This document shows positions 3,740 to 21,936 of a stretch of DNA of 22,505 nucleotides, one piece after another. Made by a program: the position numbers and the translations under genes. A model generated the notes under the pieces. That model was not told the origin of the DNA. It made no database searches and saw only the letters and a list, made by a program, of their open reading frames with translations. Numbering within the stretch: position 1 is the stretch's first letter; the number at the start of each line of letters is the position of its first letter. The DNA is from a virus, in the IMG/VR virus record IMGVR_UViG_3300007541_000243, positions 1 to 22,505 of that record; one strand, written 5' to 3'.

Positions 3740-3766
3740 CTAAATAATAATAAACATTTTGGTACA
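3719..3766 (+). repeat. Perfect 14-bp inverted repeat around a late promoter
   Basis: TGTACCAAAATGTT (3719-3732) is the exact reverse complement of AACATTTTGGTACA (3753-3766). The 20-base loop contains a late promoter motif. The right arm ends one base before the HNH start codon at 3768. In a read-through RNA it would form a strong hairpin over the start region. Confidence 0.9.
3739..3746 (+). promoter_or_regulatory. Late promoter inside the hairpin loop (TCTAAATA)
   Basis: TCTAAATA lies in the loop of the inverted repeat. With T4-like spacing transcription would start near 3752, so a late transcript would lack the left arm of the hairpin. Confidence 0.55.
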
Positions 3767-3767
3767 A

Positions 3768-4322
3768 ATGGATAATAAGAGATCAATCTCAAGAACTAAT
3801 AGGCTAAAATCAATAGAGGAAGGTAAAAAAACTTATGTTAGTGCTACTGCATGCAAACACTGCGGTAGTTACGAAAAGTATGTGAGTAGTTATGGATGTT
3901 ATCCATGTAATTATGAGAAGGGTGTTGAAAAACTTCTATCTGGGTGCTGTGATGGCTACATGACTAAAGAAAAATGGGCAGCAAATAGAGAAAGAAGAAG
4001 AGAAAAACTTAGAGAGAATAATAGAAAGTATTCTAAAGGCGAACGTGGTAAAGCAGTTGCTGCTGAAAAGACAAGGAGAAGATACGCTAGACTGAAACAA
4101 AGTATTCCTATAGAAATAACTACGGAAGACCTCCGCAAAATACAAGAAATTTATCAAGAAGCACAACACTTGACATCTACTACAGGAATACGTTATGATG
4201 TAGATCACATTGTTCCTTTGTTTGACGGAGGCCTTCACCATCCGGATAATCTCCAAGTTATTACTTACGATCAACACCTAAAAAAAACTGCTGCAGAAAA
4301 TAGTAGAAGACAATCAAAATGA
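3768..4322 (+). CDS. Free-standing HNH homing-type endonuclease with zinc finger
   Basis: A 184-residue protein from ATG 3768; a TTG at 3759 would add three residues but lies in the inverted repeat. The N-terminal part has two CxxC pairs (C29/C32 and C44/C47), likely a zinc ribbon. A very basic stretch follows (about 66-110). The C-terminal HNH site reads DVDHIVPLFDGG, HHPDNLQ, then H170, with D146/H147, N161 and H170 as the likely catalytic and metal residues. Such genes cut an allele lacking the insert and spread by recombination. It sits between gp55 and gp47 and overlaps gp47 by ATGA. No gene is disrupted here. Confidence 0.85.
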   Translation: MDNKRSISRTNRLKSIEEGKKTYVSATACKHCGSYEKYVSSYGCYPCNYEKGVEKLLSGCCDGYMTKEKWAANRERRREKLRENNRKYSKGERGKAVAAEKTRRRYARLKQSIPIEITTEDLRKIQEIYQEAQHLTSTTGIRYDVDHIVPLFDGGLHHPDNLQVITYDQHLKKTAAENSRRQSK

Positions 4323-7375: not shown

Positions 7376-7849
7376 ATGAACTCTAAGGAATACTGGGGAT
7401 TGATGGGGGCATATTCTGAAGTTTATGCTTCTACGGAACAACTTGATGAAGGCATGACGATGAAGGACTTCAAGGCAAATCGTAAGAAGAATGAGCGTAG
7501 AGCTGCTTCTGCTGATGCTAAATCTAGAGGTCATGTTGATAAGTTTACTGGAAAACCTTATAGTCCTGACGAAGCGCGCTCAAGAAGAAGAGGTATTCAC
7601 ACTCCAGAAAAATCACCAGAAAGAGATGCTGCTCGTGATGCTGCTGGAGGTGAAACTGGACGAGGTGGTAGATTGAGACCCAATAAAGTTCGTAAGGCAA
7701 AGGCACTTGGAGAACTTGGAGAGAAAGTAGATATTTACGACATCATCCTTTCACACTTACTTGATGAAGGATATGCTGAAACACCAGAAGCAGCAGAAGT
7801 CATTATGGTAAATATGAGTGAAGAGTGGAGAGATAGTATTATTGGTTGA
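7376..7849 (+). CDS. Conserved cyanophage basic protein, probable late/virion-associated
   Basis: A 157-residue protein. The N-terminus (MNSKEYWGLMGAYSEVYAS then EQLDEG) and the C-terminus (YDIILSHLLDEGYAETPEAA, then EEWRDSI) resemble recurrent end modules of several cyanomyovirus late proteins. The centre (about 30-110) is low-complexity and rich in Arg, Lys, Ala and Gly, suggesting nucleic-acid contact or disorder. No enzymatic motif is visible. Having its own terminator and consensus late promoter inside a block of early genes argues that it is made late, perhaps as a head or core component; this is inference. It is followed by a hairpin and the CobT-like gene. Confidence 0.75.
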   Translation: MNSKEYWGLMGAYSEVYASTEQLDEGMTMKDFKANRKKNERRAASADAKSRGHVDKFTGKPYSPDEARSRRRGIHTPEKSPERDAARDAAGGETGRGGRLRPNKVRKAKALGELGEKVDIYDIILSHLLDEGYAETPEAAEVIMVNMSEEWRDSIIG

Positions 7850-7928: not shown

Positions 7929-10121
7929 ATGGCAGTCTCTCACGAAATCAAATCCCAACTGGCCAAACTGTTGGCTACTGAAGACCTTGTAGTTGAACAT
8001 AAGAAAGTCTCCACAGCCTGCTTCAATGTTCATACTCGGGTTCTCACACTTCCAATGTGGGAGAAGGCAAGCAATACCGTCTATGACCTTCTGGTAGGTC
8101 ATGAAGTTGGTCATGCACTTTTTTCACCTGATGTAGATTGGACTGAAGAATACAAGATTCCTCATCAGTTTGTGAATGTGGTTGAGGATGCTCGCATTGA
8201 GAAACTGATGAAGCGTAAGTACGCTGGACTTGCTAAAACTTTCTTCACTGGATACAAAGAACTGAATGAAGATGATTTCTTTCAGATTGGTGGTGAGGAT
8301 GTTTCTACCTTCAATCTGGCTGATCGTGTCAATCTTTACTTCAAGATTGGTAACTTCATCACTCTTGACTTCAATTCGGAAGAACAAGAAATCGTCAATC
8401 TGATTGGTGCTTGTGAAACCTTTGCTGATGTTCTGATTGCTTCAGAAGAACTCTATAAGTATTGTAAGAGTGAGCAGGAGAAACAGCAAAAGGTTTCTGA
8501 CTTTGATTCACACGAAACTCAAGGAACCTCTCAGTCTTCTAATGGGAAACCTGTAGAGACTGATGACTCCTCTTCCGAGCAAGATGGAGAGAATAATAAC
8601 TCTCAGGAACAGCAATCTGATTCTGATCAATCTCAAAGTGGAACTGCTCAAGGTGATCAGACTCCTGTAAGTTCTACTGAAGATAAAGAAGAACCTGAAG
8701 TTCGCACGGCAGATTCTCTGGAAGACAAACTTCGCAATCTTGTTAGTAACGATACTTACGAGAATGTTTATGTGGAGATTCCTCAACTCAATCTTAAAAC
8801 TGTGATCGGTAAGAACACTGAAGTTCACCAAGAGATTAGTAACTCTTTCAACCAGCAACAAAAACTTCACAATAACCACGCTCAAGAACACAACTACTCT
8901 CCTACAGATTTGTATAAAAAGGTGGACCTTGAATTTAAAAAGTTCAAAACATCTGCCCAGAAAGAAGTAAACTATCTGGTCAAAGAGTTTGAGTGTCGTA
9001 AGTCGGCAGATCAGTACGCTCGTACTTCAACTGCACGCACTGGCATTCTTGATTGCACCAAACTTCATACTTACAAATACAATGAAGACCTGTTCAAGAA
9101 GGTTTCTGTAATTCCTGATGGTAAAAATCACGGTCTAGTGTTTGTGTTGGACTGGAGTGGTTCTATGCAAAACGTGATGCTTGATACATGTAAGCAACTC
9201 TTCAATCTTGTTTGGTTCTGTAAGAAAGTATCTATTCCCTTTGAAGTGTATGCATTCACCAATGAATGGCGTCGTGGTGAGTATGATTATGAAACTGGAA
9301 AGTATCTTGCAGCAGACCGAGTTCCTCACTATCAAAAGAAAGAGGGTCTCCTAGTTGTGGATGAGACATTCTCTATGATGAACCTTCTTACCAGTAAAGT
9401 CTCTGGTAAAGAACTGGAGAATCAAATGGTAAACATCTGGCGTCTTGCTAGTTGTTTTACTTCGACTTATTCTGTCGGATACACTTATCCTCCCCGACTT
9501 GCTCTTTCGGGAACTCCTTTGAACGAGGCACTGATTTCTCTTCATCAGATTCTTCCTAAATTTCAAAAGGAAAACAAACTTCAGAAGGTTCAATGTATTG
9601 TTCTAACTGATGGTGAAGCAAATCAACTTATTCGTCATAAAGAAGTTAATCGCCCAGGGATGAAAGAATCCTTCATTGGGCATGGATACATTGAACCCAG
9701 GACTACATTTCTTCGGGACCGTAAACTTGGAACAACCTATCAGTTTGGTTATGGTTATTCTAACTTTACCGATGTTCTTCTCAAGAACCTGAAAGATAAG
9801 TTCCCCCTAACAAACTTTATTGGTATTCGTGTTCTTGAAGGTCGAAATGCAAATCGTTTCATTCATCTTTATCATTCTATTGGTGACAAACAGTACGATA
9901 AAATTCAGAACGATTGGAGAAAGATGAAGAGCTTCACCATTACAAACTCTGGTTATGACGTTTATTTTGGAATGTCTGCAACCACACTTTCTCAAGATGC
10001 TGAGTTTGAAGTTGCTGAGTGTGCCACTAAATCTCAAATCAAATCTGCTTTCACAAAGTCACTGAAGACCAAAAAACTAAATAAGAAGGTACTTGGCGAA
10101 TTTATCTCCCTAGTGGTATGA
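7929..10121 (+). CDS. CobT-like VWA-domain protein with HExxH metallopeptidase motif
   Basis: A 730-residue protein. The N-terminal domain has VGHEVGHALF, an HExxH zinc site (H58, E59, H62), followed by NVVEDARIEKL with E86 as the likely third ligand. Residues about 181-258 are a Ser/Gln/Asp/Glu-rich linker. The C-terminal VWA domain carries a MIDAS: DWSGS at 408-412, GTPLNEAL as the Thr motif, and LTDGEAN as the Asp motif. The layout recalls the cobaltochelatase subunit CobT, and the CobS-like AAA+ gene lies downstream. Such VWA/MoxR-type pairs remodel protein or metal complexes. Whether this one acts in cobalamin synthesis, as a chaperone or as a protease is unknown. Confidence 0.8.
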   Translation: MAVSHEIKSQLAKLLATEDLVVEHKKVSTACFNVHTRVLTLPMWEKASNTVYDLLVGHEVGHALFSPDVDWTEEYKIPHQFVNVVEDARIEKLMKRKYAGLAKTFFTGYKELNEDDFFQIGGEDVSTFNLADRVNLYFKIGNFITLDFNSEEQEIVNLIGACETFADVLIASEELYKYCKSEQEKQQKVSDFDSHETQGTSQSSNGKPVETDDSSSEQDGENNNSQEQQSDSDQSQSGTAQGDQTPVSSTEDKEEPEVRTADSLEDKLRNLVSNDTYENVYVEIPQLNLKTVIGKNTEVHQEISNSFNQQQKLHNNHAQEHNYSPTDLYKKVDLEFKKFKTSAQKEVNYLVKEFECRKSADQYARTSTARTGILDCTKLHTYKYNEDLFKKVSVIPDGKNHGLVFVLDWSGSMQNVMLDTCKQLFNLVWFCKKVSIPFEVYAFTNEWRRGEYDYETGKYLAADRVPHYQKKEGLLVVDETFSMMNLLTSKVSGKELENQMVNIWRLASCFTSTYSVGYTYPPRLALSGTPLNEALISLHQILPKFQKENKLQKVQCIVLTDGEANQLIRHKEVNRPGMKESFIGHGYIEPRTTFLRDRKLGTTYQFGYGYSNFTDVLLKNLKDKFPLTNFIGIRVLEGRNANRFIHLYHSIGDKQYDKIQNDWRKMKSFTITNSGYDVYFGMSATTLSQDAEFEVAECATKSQIKSAFTKSLKTKKLNKKVLGEFISLVV
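10076..10083 (+). promoter_or_regulatory. Possible late promoter inside the CobT-like gene (ACTAAATA)
   Basis: ACTAAATA lies within the Lys-Leu-Asn codons near the end of the CobT-like gene, 34 bases before the start at 10118. The same motif also occurs inside gp62 by apparent chance, so this is tentative. Confidence 0.35.
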
Positions 10122-10696
10122 AAACATTCAAAGAATTTATGGTGGAATGCTCTTCAATTGAAGAGGCTACTATCAATAAACAAATTAGAAACACTAAAGA
10201 AAGAGATACAGCAATGTTATCAAGAGATCGTGGATCTCAAAGTGAAAAACAAAATCGTCAGGAAAGAAAATCTACAGAAAAAACTTTGAGAAGATCTGGT
10301 CACGGATTTAGTAAAAATGTAGGTTCTTATGATGAGGGTGAAGGTAAGGGCACAAGTACCGAGGTTTCCTATCAAGTATCAAGAAATCCCAACAAAAATT
10401 CTAAGAGGGGATTTGAAAGGAAAATGAGAAACTTGGGCAAAAAGAAAGGGCCTTCTGGAGAACCTCAGCACAGTGTCATCACACAAAGGGCAGGTAAAGA
10501 GGCCAAGTTAGTATCAACAGATGGAAGTGGAGAAAAGTCCTTTAGTATTGGAAAGGCAAAACACGGTAATAATCCAGACCCATCTATTGGACAAACAACT
10601 GCAGGTAAAGTAAGATCTAAAAAGAAACCAAACGAAAATCAAACAGAAAAAAATGTCAAACAAAATAGATCATTCCACTACAGCAGCGAAGGGTGA
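10118..10696 (+). CDS. Putative internal head protein with T4-like capsid-targeting N-terminus
   Basis: A 192-residue, very basic, Gly/Ser/Lys/Asn-rich protein with little predicted fold. Its first 11 residues, MKTFKEFMVEC, resemble the capsid-targeting peptide of T4 internal proteins IPI and IPIII, MKTYQEFIAEA as I recall it, with the Glu at position 10 after which the gp21 protease cuts. By analogy the protein would be packed in the prohead, trimmed and injected with the DNA. The rest shows no domain I recognise. The start overlaps the CobT-like stop by ATGA, and a late-promoter-like motif lies 34 bases upstream. Confidence 0.65.
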   Translation: MKTFKEFMVECSSIEEATINKQIRNTKERDTAMLSRDRGSQSEKQNRQERKSTEKTLRRSGHGFSKNVGSYDEGEGKGTSTEVSYQVSRNPNKNSKRGFERKMRNLGKKKGPSGEPQHSVITQRAGKEAKLVSTDGSGEKSFSIGKAKHGNNPDPSIGQTTAGKVRSKKKPNENQTEKNVKQNRSFHYSSEG

Positions 10697-17580: not shown

Positions 17581-18159
17581 ATGGAGTACTATACATATGC
17601 TTATTTTGATGAAAATAATATTCCTTATTATATTGGTAAAGGAAAAGGTAAAAGAGCTTGGGATAAAAATCACTCTGTTTTGGTGCCACCAAATGAAAGA
17701 ATAGTAATTTTGAAGAACAATCTTACGGAGGAAGATGCATTTAAGCACGAAATTTATTTAATAGAAATTCTTGGTAGAAAAAGTCAAGGAACTGGTATAT
17801 TGGAAAATATACATAGGGGTGGATGTCAACCCTCTGGATTTATACAGCACTCGGAAGAAACTAAATCTAGGATGAGATTGAGAAGACACAGTGAAGAAAC
17901 AAAGAAAAAAATTGGAGAATCTTTAAAAAGTCGCCCTTGTAAAGAAGAAGTAAAACAAAAATTATCAAAATTGTGGACCGGAAGAAAATTAACAGAGGAT
18001 ACAAAAAATAAAATGAGTAAATCTCATATGGGTAAAAAATTAAGTGAAGAGACAAAAAGAAGAATGAGTGACGCAAAAAAACAAATGAGTGAGGAGACGA
18101 AAAGAAAAATGAGTGAGAAGGCAAAATTGAGAGAAGCAAAAAAACGAGGAGAAATTTGA
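17581..18159 (+). CDS. GIY-YIG homing-type endonuclease with NUMOD3 repeats
   Basis: A 192-residue protein. The GIY-YIG domain begins YTYAYFDENNIPYYIGKGKG (about 4-23), with KRAW providing the Arg and HEIYLIE (56-62) the acidic residue. Residues 90-185 carry about six NUMOD3-like units of the form SEETKxKMS, a DNA-binding repeat typical of Seg-type endonucleases in T4-like phages. The DNA is A-rich compared with its neighbours, which fits a recent arrival. It is isolated by a terminator on each side and has its own late promoter. The stop codon lies in the loop of the downstream terminator. Confidence 0.88.
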   Translation: MEYYTYAYFDENNIPYYIGKGKGKRAWDKNHSVLVPPNERIVILKNNLTEEDAFKHEIYLIEILGRKSQGTGILENIHRGGCQPSGFIQHSEETKSRMRLRRHSEETKKKIGESLKSRPCKEEVKQKLSKLWTGRKLTEDTKNKMSKSHMGKKLSEETKRRMSDAKKQMSEETKRKMSEKAKLREAKKRGEI

Positions 18160-18557: not shown

Positions 18558-18756
18558 GGAAGTATCTACAGAACTTGGAGAACCTGATTGTAAGCTTATT
18601 GAACCATTTCTTTTAAATCCATCGGATGAAACTCTATCTCCTTGGTTGGTAAATGTTTCATCTCAAAATACATTTATGATTCATTCGGATAAGATTCTCA
18701 CAATTGTAGACCCAAAACCAACACTTCTTGAAAAGTATCAAAATTTGATTAAATGA
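18505..18756 (+). CDS. Sm-like small protein, copy D
   Basis: An 83-residue protein. It keeps the second half of the family pattern well: PFLLNPSDETLSPWLVNVSS with the PW dipeptide, then FMIHSDKILTIVDPKPTLLE and a final KYQ. The N-terminal SGE hairpin is replaced by a divergent stretch with LVLMNNQMLLSQI. It overlaps copy C by 53 bases and gp43 by ATGA, so it is probably coupled to polymerase translation. Confidence 0.7.
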   Translation: MTKILVLMNNQMLLSQIEEVSTELGEPDCKLIEPFLLNPSDETLSPWLVNVSSQNTFMIHSDKILTIVDPKPTLLEKYQNLIK

Positions 18757-20216
18757 AATTTTATACCAATGTGGCTCTGATTGGAAATCAGATTCTTTTT
18801 CGTGGTTATGAAAATGGTAAGCATGTAATGTATAAGGAGGAGTATTTTCCTACTCTCTTCGTTCCTTCTAAAAAACAAACTCAATACAAAACTCTGGAGG
18901 GTGATTATGTAGAAAAAATCTCCCCTGGTTCTGTTCGTGACTGCCGAGAATTTTATAAGAAGTATGAGAACGTAGATGGATTCAAAATCTACGGAAATGA
19001 TAGATACGTCTTTCAATACATCTCAGACAAATATCCCGAGGATGAAATCAAGTTTGATATTACCAAAGTCAAACTGGTTACAATTGACATTGAGGTTGCT
19101 TCTGAGAATGGATTCCCGGATGTTCAATCAGCTTCAGAGGAGATTCTTACAATCGCAATTCAGGATTATGCAACAAAGCAAATCATCACCTGGGGAATTC
19201 ATCCGTTCAATAACAAACAAAGTAACGTAAAATACGTTGAATGTGGATCTGAGCATACACTCCTTCAAAAGTTTATTGACTATTGGAAAGACAATACTCC
19301 AGAAGTTATTACTGGATGGAACATTCAACTTTATGACATCCCGTATATCTGTCGTCGTCTAAATCGGGTTCTTGGTGATCGGGGAATGAAAGACCTATCC
19401 CCCTGGGGTCTTGCAACTGAGAAAGAGGTCTTTGTTTCTGGTAGGAAACAGATTCAGTATGAACTTGGTGGAGTTACTCAACTAGACTATTTGGATCTCT
19501 ACAAGAAGTTCACCTATACAAATCAAGAATCTTACCGACTAGATTACATTGCTTCAGTAGAACTCGGTCAACAAAAACTGGATCACTCTGAGTTTGATAC
19601 CTTCAAAGAATTTTATACTAAGAACTGGCAAAAGTTTGTTGAGTATAACATTATTGACGTGGAACTTGTGGATCGTCTTGAAGAGAAGATGAAACTGATT
19701 GAGTTGGCTATTACTATGGCATACGACGCCAAAGTAAACTATAATGATGTCTTCTATCAGGTTCGTATGTGGGACAATATCATCTACACCGATCTAAAGA
19801 AACGAGGCATTGTAATTCCACCAAGAAATACAAATCAAAAGGACGAAAAGTATGCTGGAGCCTATGTAAAAGAACCTGTTCCTGGAGTTTATGATTATGT
19901 GGTAAGTTTTGACTTGAACTCCCTATATCCACATTTAATTATGATGTACAATGTAAGTCCTGAAACTCTTTTGGAAGAAAAACATCCAACAGTTACGGTG
20001 GATAAAATTCTAAAAAAAGAAGTGGATTTTGAGATGTATAAGGACTATTCTGTATGTGCTAATGGTGCAATGTATAGAAAAGATATTCTTGGATTTCTTC
20101 CTAGGTTGATGGAGAAGATGTATAAGGACCGAAAGATGTTCAAAAACAAGATGCTCAAATCAAAACAAAAACTTGTGGATATTGAAGCTGAAATGAAGAA
20201 ACGAGGATTGAAGTAG
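18753..20216 (+). CDS. 43: DNA polymerase gp43, N-terminal part (gp43A)
   Basis: 487 residues of a family B polymerase. It holds the whole 3'-5' exonuclease: Exo I DIE at 112-114, Exo II with N190 and D195 in GWNIQLYDIPYI, and Exo III YNIIDVEL with D302. Palm motif A DLNSLYP is at 387-393. It stops at TAG 20214-20216 in the fingers region, just after KQKLVDIEAEMKKRGLK. T4 gp43 is one chain of 898 residues; motifs B and C are in the second part beginning after an HNH gene. Alone this part cannot polymerise. Confidence 0.93.
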   Translation: MKFYTNVALIGNQILFRGYENGKHVMYKEEYFPTLFVPSKKQTQYKTLEGDYVEKISPGSVRDCREFYKKYENVDGFKIYGNDRYVFQYISDKYPEDEIKFDITKVKLVTIDIEVASENGFPDVQSASEEILTIAIQDYATKQIITWGIHPFNNKQSNVKYVECGSEHTLLQKFIDYWKDNTPEVITGWNIQLYDIPYICRRLNRVLGDRGMKDLSPWGLATEKEVFVSGRKQIQYELGGVTQLDYLDLYKKFTYTNQESYRLDYIASVELGQQKLDHSEFDTFKEFYTKNWQKFVEYNIIDVELVDRLEEKMKLIELAITMAYDAKVNYNDVFYQVRMWDNIIYTDLKKRGIVIPPRNTNQKDEKYAGAYVKEPVPGVYDYVVSFDLNSLYPHLIMMYNVSPETLLEEKHPTVTVDKILKKEVDFEMYKDYSVCANGAMYRKDILGFLPRLMEKMYKDRKMFKNKMLKSKQKLVDIEAEMKKRGLK

Positions 20217-20271: not shown

Positions 20272-20727
20272 ATGTTAGAAGATTTGGCAGGACAAACCTT
20301 TGGCAGGCTTACTGCTCTCTCTGTTGAAATCAAAGGAAAACGCACATATTGGTTGTGTAAGTGCTCTTGTGGAAATGAAAAATGTGTAAGGAAAGAGAAG
20401 TTGAAAAATGGTACAACTATATCTTGCGGTTGTGCCAGAAAAGAAAGAAATCATCAAGGAACCAAAACAAAACTTTATGGTAGGTGGAACTCTATGGTAA
20501 TGCGATGTCATAACCCTAATAGTGTTGGTTATCATAAGTATGGGGCAAAAGGTATAAAGGTTTGTGATAGATGGAGAACCTTTATAAACTTCTATGAAGA
20601 TATGGGTGATCCTCCAGAGGGTATGACTCTTGAGAGATTGGATAGTAATGGTGATTATTGTCCTGAAAATGTCATATGGGCGGATTATTTTACACAGAAC
20701 AACAACCGACCTGGATATAATAAGTAA
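20272..20727 (+). CDS. HNH homing-type endonuclease within gp43
   Basis: A 151-residue protein. The N-terminal GQTFGRLTALS module and the Cys cluster (C29, C31, C33, C38, C52, C54 in CKCSCG, CVRK and SCGC) likely bind zinc. The middle YGRWNSMVMRCHNP with GAKGIKVCDRW and FYEDMG, and the C-terminal MTLERLDSNGDYCPENVIWA (D124, N133), are typical of phage and intron HNH endonucleases of this type. It lies in a different frame from gp43 and separates motif A from motif B. A GGGGG ribosome site is 4 bases before the ATG. Confidence 0.88.
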   Translation: MLEDLAGQTFGRLTALSVEIKGKRTYWLCKCSCGNEKCVRKEKLKNGTTISCGCARKERNHQGTKTKLYGRWNSMVMRCHNPNSVGYHKYGAKGIKVCDRWRTFINFYEDMGDPPEGMTLERLDSNGDYCPENVIWADYFTQNNNRPGYNK

Positions 20728-20919: not shown

Positions 20920-21936
20920 ATGGCTAGAAAGATCCAACTGAACTCAGCCTACGGAAGTGTCGGCAATCAGTATTTTAGATACTATAAACTGGACAATGCC
21001 GAAGCCATTACTCTTTCCGGTCAGGTTTCTATCCGTTGGATTGAGAACAAAATGAATCTGTATTTGAATAAGGTTCTGAAAACGGAGAATATTGATTATG
21101 TTATTGCGTCTGATACTGATTCTATCTATCTTAATATGGGTCCTTTGGTTGACCGTGTATTCAAAGGAAGAGAGAAAACTAATGAAATCGTTGTTTCTTT
21201 CCTTGATAAGATCTGTAAGTTGGAACTTGAAAAGTATATTGAGAGTTGCTACCAAGAACTGGCGGACTATGTGAATGCATATGACCAGAAGATGCAGATG
21301 AAACGTGAGAACATCGCAGATCGTGGCATCTGGACAGCAAAGAAAAGATACATCCTCAATGTCTGGGATAGTGAAGGTGTTCGTTATGAGGAACCCAAAC
21401 TGAAGATGATGGGAATTGAAGCTGTCAAATCATCTACTCCAGCACCTTGTCGCAAGATGCTCAAGGATGGTCTCAAACTGATGATGTCTGGTACTGAAGA
21501 TGATGTGATTGATTACATTGATAAGTGTAGAAAGGAGTTTAACAAACTCTCTCCGGAGGATATCTCCTTCCCACGGTCAGCATCTGATATTCAAAAGTAC
21601 AAATCTTCGTCAGAAATTTACATCAAAGGAACTCCCATTCACGTTAGAGGAGCTCTTCTGTATAATCACTACATTAAGGAAAGGAACCTAACGAATAAAT
21701 ATTCACTTATTCAGAATGGAGAAAAGGTTAAATTTTGTTATCTCAAAAAACCAAATCCATTTCACGAGAATGTAATCTCATACATTCAAGATTTTCCAAG
21801 AGAACTTGGAATTGACAAATACATTGATTATGACCTACAATTCGAGAAATCATTTCTAGAACCTATGAAATCTATTCTTGATTCTATCGGATGGAAAGTG
21901 GAAAAAACTATCAACCTTAGCTCATTTTTTGAATGA
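20920..21936 (+). CDS. 43: DNA polymerase gp43, C-terminal part (gp43B)
   Basis: 338 residues from the first ATG, at 20920. It holds motif B KIQLNSAYG (4-12), motif C ASDTDS (63-68), the KKRY motif in WTAKKRYILNVWDSEG, and a thumb domain. The end LSSFFE resembles the clamp-binding C-terminus of T4 gp43 (SLFDMFDF). No Shine-Dalgarno precedes 20920. Starting there leaves only three residues before motif B and drops the fingers helix coded upstream. The stop overlaps uvsX by ATGA. Non-covalent assembly with gp43A, as reported for split gp43 in some Aeromonas phages, is the likely route to an active enzyme. Confidence 0.88.
   Translation: MARKIQLNSAYGSVGNQYFRYYKLDNAEAITLSGQVSIRWIENKMNLYLNKVLKTENIDYVIASDTDSIYLNMGPLVDRVFKGREKTNEIVVSFLDKICKLELEKYIESCYQELADYVNAYDQKMQMKRENIADRGIWTAKKRYILNVWDSEGVRYEEPKLKMMGIEAVKSSTPAPCRKMLKDGLKLMMSGTEDDVIDYIDKCRKEFNKLSPEDISFPRSASDIQKYKSSSEIYIKGTPIHVRGALLYNHYIKERNLTNKYSLIQNGEKVKFCYLKKPNPFHENVISYIQDFPRELGIDKYIDYDLQFEKSFLEPMKSILDSIGWKVEKTINLSSFFE

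Follow-up and report, generated by a model that had tools for sequence, protein, structure and literature searches.

This study concerns a gene at positions 10118 to 10696 (+ strand) of a viral DNA stretch of 22,505 nucleotides (IMG/VR record IMGVR_UViG_3300007541_000243, positions 1 to 22,505), referred to as the window in the following. The open reading frame encodes 192 amino acids, its ATG overlaps the stop codon of an upstream peptidase gene (ATGA, 10118-10121), and it is located in a replication-type cluster between this peptidase gene and a cobS gene. A tblastn search detected homologues in 38 phage records, including GenBank/RefSeq duplicates, with names containing Prochlorococcus, Synechococcus, Cyanophage or Marine. 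An earlier note, made from the sequence alone, had assigned a protein with the start MKTFKEFMVEC and a basic, disordered remainder to this frame; frame and protein start were borne out. Here, we present evidence that the gene encodes an S-adenosyl-L-methionine (SAM) lyase behind a putative capsid-targeting leader, so that the enzyme may be packaged into the phage head and delivered together with the genome.

Sequence-only searches of the PDB with the window protein, with alignment A1 and with the P-TIM68 protein gave no match at E-values up to 10, and a search on the level of the fold was therefore needed. The AlphaFold2 model, calculated as a single chain from 32 sequences, has a mean predicted local distance difference test score (pLDDT) of 80.6 and a predicted template modelling score of 0.76, with an ordered alpha/beta body and its weakest stretch in the first 20 residues (pLDDT about 56-61). 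Foldseek ranked phage SAM lyases on top of all PDB entries, namely 6zm9 (E 1e-3), 6znb and then four chains of 7ock, which is labelled as SAM synthetase (MAT) in complex with SAMH. Structural alignment with VIA-align gave Z 13.3 for the T3 SAM lyase 8bb1_E (2.8 Å over 132 residues, model residues 24-190) and Z 12.5 for a second chain of the T3 enzyme (7ock_J), while the first unrelated row followed at Z 6.7; the Svi3-3 structures (6zm9, 6znb) reached Z 6.8-7.6 and a SAM-AMP lyase Z 5.3. Both methods place the model in the PII-like alpha/beta SAM lyase fold. On the basis of these results, the modelled body after the leader is a SAM lyase domain, which is ordered and spans nearly the whole remainder of the protein (residues 24-190, 10187..10687, + strand). 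The protein is indeed basic, as had been claimed (pI 10.1; 41 Lys and Arg versus 23 Asp and Glu), but the disorder and the role as basic filler packed with DNA do not agree with a folded enzyme domain. Enzymes of the SAM lyase family are trimers with active sites at the subunit interfaces and convert SAM to methylthioadenosine and homoserine lactone.

The Pfam profile PF23780 (S-adenosylmethionine lyase family) matches residues 33-147 of the window protein with an E-value of 2.2e-4 (21.6 bits). All eight relatives tested pass its curated cut-off, with E-values of 2.3e-19 for gp6 of S-CREM2, 4e-22 for P-TIM68, 8.9e-8 for P-SSM2, 5.2e-8 for S-WAM1, 1.1e-6 for P-SSM4 and 7e-23 for S-H34, as well as 4e-13 and 8e-21 for an Alishewanella and a Campylobacter phage, respectively. 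NCBIfam and PADLOC provided no useful match.

In the SAM lyase Svi3-3, Gly56, Glu69 and Gln104 are strictly conserved and Tyr58 encloses the ligand; the exchanges E69Q and E69A nearly abolish activity, and mutants of Svi3-3 E69 and of the corresponding T3 E68 are described as having lost it (PMC7877911). The equivalent positions of the window protein are G69 and Y71 (codons of G69, S70 and Y71 at 10322..10330), the predicted catalytic glutamate E82 (10361..10363) and Q117 (10466..10468), all on the + strand. These four residues are invariant in 96 of 96 rows of an alignment consisting of the window protein, the T3 enzyme, nine named phage relatives and 85 loci from viral contigs. An hhalign comparison of a second alignment (A2) with the T3 SAMase was in register and placed E82 on the second glutamate of the T3 EE pair, the catalytic E68, at a probability of 0.2, which is not significant.

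In front of this domain, residues 1-16 (MKTFKEFMVECSSIEE, 10118..10165, + strand) form a putative capsid-targeting leader with phenylalanines at positions 4 and 7. The leaders of T4 internal proteins comprise 10-19 residues with aromatics at positions 4 and 7; according to mutagenesis, residues 4 and 7 serve mainly targeting and residues 8 and 10 processing, and the protease gp21 cuts after L/I-x-E (PMC9026906). The similarity to T4 was differently distributed than the earlier note had it, which gave one leader for IPI and IPIII with 7 of 11 matches. As read from NC_000866, IPII and IPIII start with MKTYQEFIAEA, to which the window protein matches at 6 of 11 positions, and IPI starts with MKTFKEFTSTT, the first seven residues of which are identical to those of the window protein. 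That the resemblance exceeds chance was confirmed: a regular expression for the leader fits only one of the 162 ATG starts in the window with at least 60 amino acids downstream, namely that of this gene, and other members of the family carry the leader as well. Applied to a 28-kb stretch of T4, the same pattern retrieves ipII and ipIII from among 54 genes but not ipI.

To avoid bias, viral contigs were searched with leaderless queries, which yielded 85 loci; their junction segments comprise 51 distinct sequences and their leaders 30. Many of these contigs recur from a search with leader queries. The N-terminal pattern M..[FYL]..F is present in 82 of these 85 relatives (79 if only F or Y is allowed at position 4), and the 30 distinct leaders all have F at position 7 and one of F, Y and L at position 4. 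The other three loci (L197, L236, L239) lack an N-terminal leader, other coding sequence preceding the domain, and L239 carries KTFSEFMSEC without the methionine. Leader frequencies from the leader-query search (133 loci, L008-L140; 50 inspected) were not used as evidence, because leader peptides had served as patterns in these searches.

A candidate site for the prohead protease, I14-E15-E16/A17 (10157..10168, + strand; cut after E16), follows the pattern [LIMV]xE/[ASGT] and fits the specificity of T4 gp21. By sequence match, this pattern is found at the junction between leader and body in 85 of 85 loci, with M at the third position before the cut in 24 and V in two, and E16 is conserved without exception in A2 (32 of 32 rows), which omits L020 and L125 of 33 prepared relatives. 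E10, the cleavage glutamate proposed earlier, stands in the context M8-V9-E10, which misfits a strict L/I-x-E (PMC9026906), so that the conserved cleavage glutamate is probably E16 and not E10. Three cyanophage major capsid proteins carry LLTE/AP, FLAE/AP and ILTE/AA near residues 52-58, which, judged from sequence alone, suggests a protease of the same specificity in these phages.

Further arrangements of the leader and the lyase domain were observed among the relatives. In S-WAM1, P-SSM4 and S-SZBM1 the lyase domain lies at the C-terminal end of a larger protein, directly behind a leader-like stretch (GKSFKEFLEEG, YYQDFIKLVEG and ITYREFIAEG, respectively). These fused lyases lie near the gene of the terminase small subunit (S-WAM1, L002:3089-4507; S-SZBM1, L145:2381-4504; P-SSM4, L006:3848-4516), and thus the lyase cassette changes genome positions and fusion partners. 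Since a protein with a different body starts with MRTFQEFLDICEEL, a sequence similar to the leader of the P-SSM2 SAM lyase (L139:6001-6120, L140:535-687), the leader may also occur on unrelated bodies. Finally, SAM lyases of a Campylobacter phage (L161:2414-3043) and an Alishewanella phage (L160:2453-3058) have short N-terminal extensions ending in NE/SSLARL and SE/SSLSRI, respectively, so that the junction motif extends beyond cyanophages.

Published virion proteomes lend support to a link between the leader and the phage particle. In CsCl-purified virions of S-CREM2, for which 52 virion proteins are reported (PMC10665884) and 219 coding sequences (CDS) are annotated, gp6, a homologue with leader and lyase domain, was detected with 19 unique peptides (PMC10665884, Table 3). 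The leader pattern fits five of the 52 virion proteins, i.e. gp6 (SAM lyase), gp13, gp14 (kinase), gp136 and gp154 (cytidylyltransferase), versus none of the 167 others (p 6.5e-4). As the pattern was fixed after S-CREM2 had been seen, only S-SZBM1 and S-SCSM1 count as held out. It fits 1 of 30 virion proteins versus 1 of 188 others in S-SZBM1 (p 0.26), the virion match being the cytidylyltransferase starting with MRFRQFIIEA, the only virion protein called an enzyme by the authors. In S-SCSM1 it fits 2 of 48 versus 1 of 234, the virion matches being the NMNAT (MKSFLQFLKEA) and SSCSM1_31. The 48 virion proteins of S-SCSM1 are the CDS so labelled in the record, whereas its paper states 45; a scan over all start codons of this phage gave seven matches, of which three are annotated CDS starts (two virion-labelled, one not). 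The two non-virion matches, SSZBM1_191 and SSCSM1_30, are alike over their first 23 residues and adjoin virion-protein genes. For the three phages joined, the pattern is found in 8 of 130 virion proteins versus 2 of 589 others (p 3.1e-5), and the NMNAT-like enzyme of each phage is among the eight. The cytidylyltransferase of P-SSM2 also begins with such a leader, MKSFSQFLTET.

From the fold, the catalytic residues, the conservation of leader and cleavage site and the virion detection of one homologue, we infer packaging and cleavage of the window protein, its injection, its catalytic activity and its purpose, and assign a probability of roughly 60% to a SAM lyase that is packaged in the head and injected to act against restriction-modification or bacteriophage exclusion (BREX) systems. 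During head assembly, the leader with its aromatics at positions 4 and 7 would dock the protein on the scaffold core, as in T4 internal proteins, and a gp21-type prohead protease would remove it, most likely after E16, leaving a basic enzyme of 176 residues packed with the DNA. This enzyme would enter the cell with the genome and convert SAM to methylthioadenosine and homoserine lactone before expression of any phage gene. SAM would then fall at the moment of entry and restriction-modification, BREX and host methylation would be starved. Phage SAM lyases are credited in the literature with neutralising both restriction-modification and BREX (PMC12255297). In both S-CREM2 and S-H34, the lyase gene follows directly on a phage gene for DNA adenine methylase, and SAM may therefore still be required by the phage at a later stage; a low dose of lyase delivered by injection would, as a matter of speculation, act early and then fade. 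The earlier note had proposed a capsid-targeted protein that could be delivered with the genome for counter-defence, and had pointed to T4 IPI, which is injected and blocks a restriction enzyme. Its head-targeting part has gained support from the retention of the leader at the positions defined in T4 and from the homologue in purified virions (PMC10665884), apart from the site at E10. The counter-defence part gains support in outline, with a SAM lyase in place of the disordered basic body then suggested.

Several observations weigh against an injected lyase. The window protein itself stays below the curated PF23780 cut-off of 28 bits. SSZBM1_194, the SAM lyase homologue of S-SZBM1, is absent from the 30 virion proteins detected by mass spectrometry in this phage, and the authors of the S-CREM2 study consider carry-over of strongly expressed proteins possible (PMC10665884). 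A processed N-terminus is not reported in the published sources examined. The search of cyanophage proteomes for the leader, which the earlier note had put forward, shows the enrichment in virion proteins described above, but the two held-out sets joined give 3 of 78 versus 2 of 422, i.e. only p 0.029, and the enrichment weakens or vanishes under looser patterns. While a strict pattern gives 3 of 52 versus 0 of 167 in S-CREM2, a pattern allowed within the first 40 residues gives 7 of 52 versus 3 of 167 (p 0.002) in S-CREM2 and 1 of 30 versus 2 of 188 (p 0.36) in S-SZBM1, and a loose pattern 6 of 52 versus 7 of 167 (p 0.085) and 1 of 30 versus 6 of 188 (p 1.0), respectively. In addition, the window is a 22.5-kb fragment, the cyanophage origin of which rests on similarity to gene clusters of cyanomyoviruses; its host probably belongs to the marine cyanobacteria.

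The absence of the S-SZBM1 homologue from the virion set and the location of the window gene in a replication-type cluster between the peptidase and cobS genes would both suit a normal SAM lyase that is synthesised after infection and works inside the cell, with the leader as a harmless extension and the detection in S-CREM2 as carry-over. The T3 enzyme, reported to be the first protein made on infection (PMC8406200), sets a precedent for this. We nevertheless consider such a lyase unlikely, although it deserves serious attention, as leader and cleavage-type site are kept in nearly all relatives and the leader is common to other virion-detected enzymes. The T3 SAM lyase is also known to inactivate MAT by forming heteropolymers (PMC8406200), and the two best structural matches of the model are T3 enzyme chains from MAT complexes. 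A packaged protein which mainly captures host MAT in heteropolymers and cleaves SAM only secondarily is nonetheless improbable in view of the fully conserved catalytic set.

A function as SAM-AMP lyase, i.e. as an anti-CRISPR protein against type III systems, is suggested by membership in the same superfamily. SAM-AMP lyases have a conserved cysteine in the T-loop, C66 in the C. botulinum enzyme (PMC12255297), whereas the window protein contains no cysteine after C11 and its Z of 5.3 to the SAM-AMP lyase compares with 13.3 to the T3 SAM lyase, which renders this function very improbable. Least credible is the view derived from the earlier note, either as a disordered, basic protein lying inside the head alongside the DNA or as a direct restriction-enzyme inhibitor like IPI: the leader match to IPI, the basic composition and a weak match of residues 1-25 to PHROG 7673 ("internal head protein", E 0.6) speak for it, but the confident ordered fold, the clear enzyme match and the conserved active site are hardly compatible with it.

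Besides the lyase gene, the window showed further features. CTAAATA, a late-promoter element of cyanophages, is present a short distance ahead of the ATG (10077-10083). The window as a whole contains 5 matches versus 4.1 expected by chance (6 versus 4.3 for the variant HATAAATA), and neither motif was used. Upstream, positions 7376-7849 (+) encode a low-complexity basic protein with a module that also occurs N-terminally in SSZBM1_194 (Smith-Waterman score 188) and, more weakly matched, in the virion-labelled SSCSM1_89 (score 88); it is possibly a second virion-internal protein. Inspected by eye, the DNA polymerase frame appears to be split in two with a separate open reading frame resembling a homing-type endonuclease between the parts (18753-20216, 20272-20727 and 20920-21936, +). 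The frames at 17581-18159 and 3759-4322 (+) appear to encode GIY-YIG-like and HNH-like homing-type endonucleases, judged by eye from their motifs.

Publications exist on SAM lyases, on capsid-targeting sequences and on one cyanophage "SAM hydrolase" detected in virions, each taken separately. The open-access literature searched contained neither a link of all three, with a leader and site kept throughout the family and a leader of this kind on further virion enzymes, nor any statement on a capsid-targeting leader in cyanophages. Virion proteomes of cyanophages repeatedly list enzymes (SAM hydrolase, NMNAT, kinase) which their authors could not separate from contamination, and a leader resembling the head-targeting sequence validated in T4 provides a mechanistic reason for true cargo and a simple sequence rule for finding more. 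We see about an even chance that the capsid-targeting sequence of T4 serves T4-like cyanophages as a general tag by which whole enzymes are loaded into the head. If so, the cargo would include a SAM lyase, an NMNAT-like nucleotidyltransferase, a kinase and perhaps the large "Cas9-type" virion protein of S-CREM2, and would, right at the start of infection, reprogramme cofactors (SAM, NAD) as well as defences of the host. The latter protein, gp12, carries PLRFASFMAEA further inside; its labelling as Cas9 by the authors is doubtful, because it (L141:7704-10313, -) gave no match in Pfam (E up to 0.05) or PADLOC (E up to 0.01). If the leader is such a general tag, it would by itself suffice to predict injected cargo in abundant marine phages from their sequences, and an enzyme known from T3 as an anti-restriction protein expressed early would here have been turned into cargo for injection. 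The SAM lyase would gain a delivery route acting before transcription, when restriction strikes, and the question of what marine phages inject besides DNA becomes testable.

Among known systems, gp6 of S-CREM2, annotated as "S-adenosyl-L-methionine hydrolase (virion protein)", resembles the window protein in its leader (MKDFDSFLEEF...SLEE/SS), the PF23780 domain following it and the same catalytic residues. It differs in its length of 414 amino acids with a long C-terminal extension and in its location beside a Dam gene instead of between peptidase and cobS genes. Its authors already suggested an injected anti-restriction role, and the sections of their paper that were examined make no mention of a capsid-targeting leader (PMC10665884). 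The NMNAT-like cytidylyltransferases of S-CREM2 (MKNFSSFLTEA), S-SZBM1 (MRFRQFIIEA) and S-SCSM1 (MKSFLQFLKEA), detected in virions by their authors, carry the same kind of leader on an enzyme unrelated to SAM lyase. T4 IPI, IPII and IPIII share with the window protein the aromatics at positions 4 and 7, the basic character and a processing site of the form L/I-x-E. IPI is injected too and counteracts restriction (PMC9026906) but, unlike the SAM lyase domain of the window protein, is described as inhibiting by binding and as having a fold of its own (PMC3012670). The Svi3-3 SAM lyase corresponds in its fold and in the equivalents of Gly56, Tyr58, Glu69 and Gln104, with a structural score far below that of T3. 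The T3 SAM lyase (SAMase, gene 0.3) is alike in fold (Z 13.3) and catalytic residues; it aligns from model residue 24 onwards and therefore has no counterpart of the leader, and, in contrast to the route proposed for the window protein, it is made early in infection and not packaged (PMC8406200).

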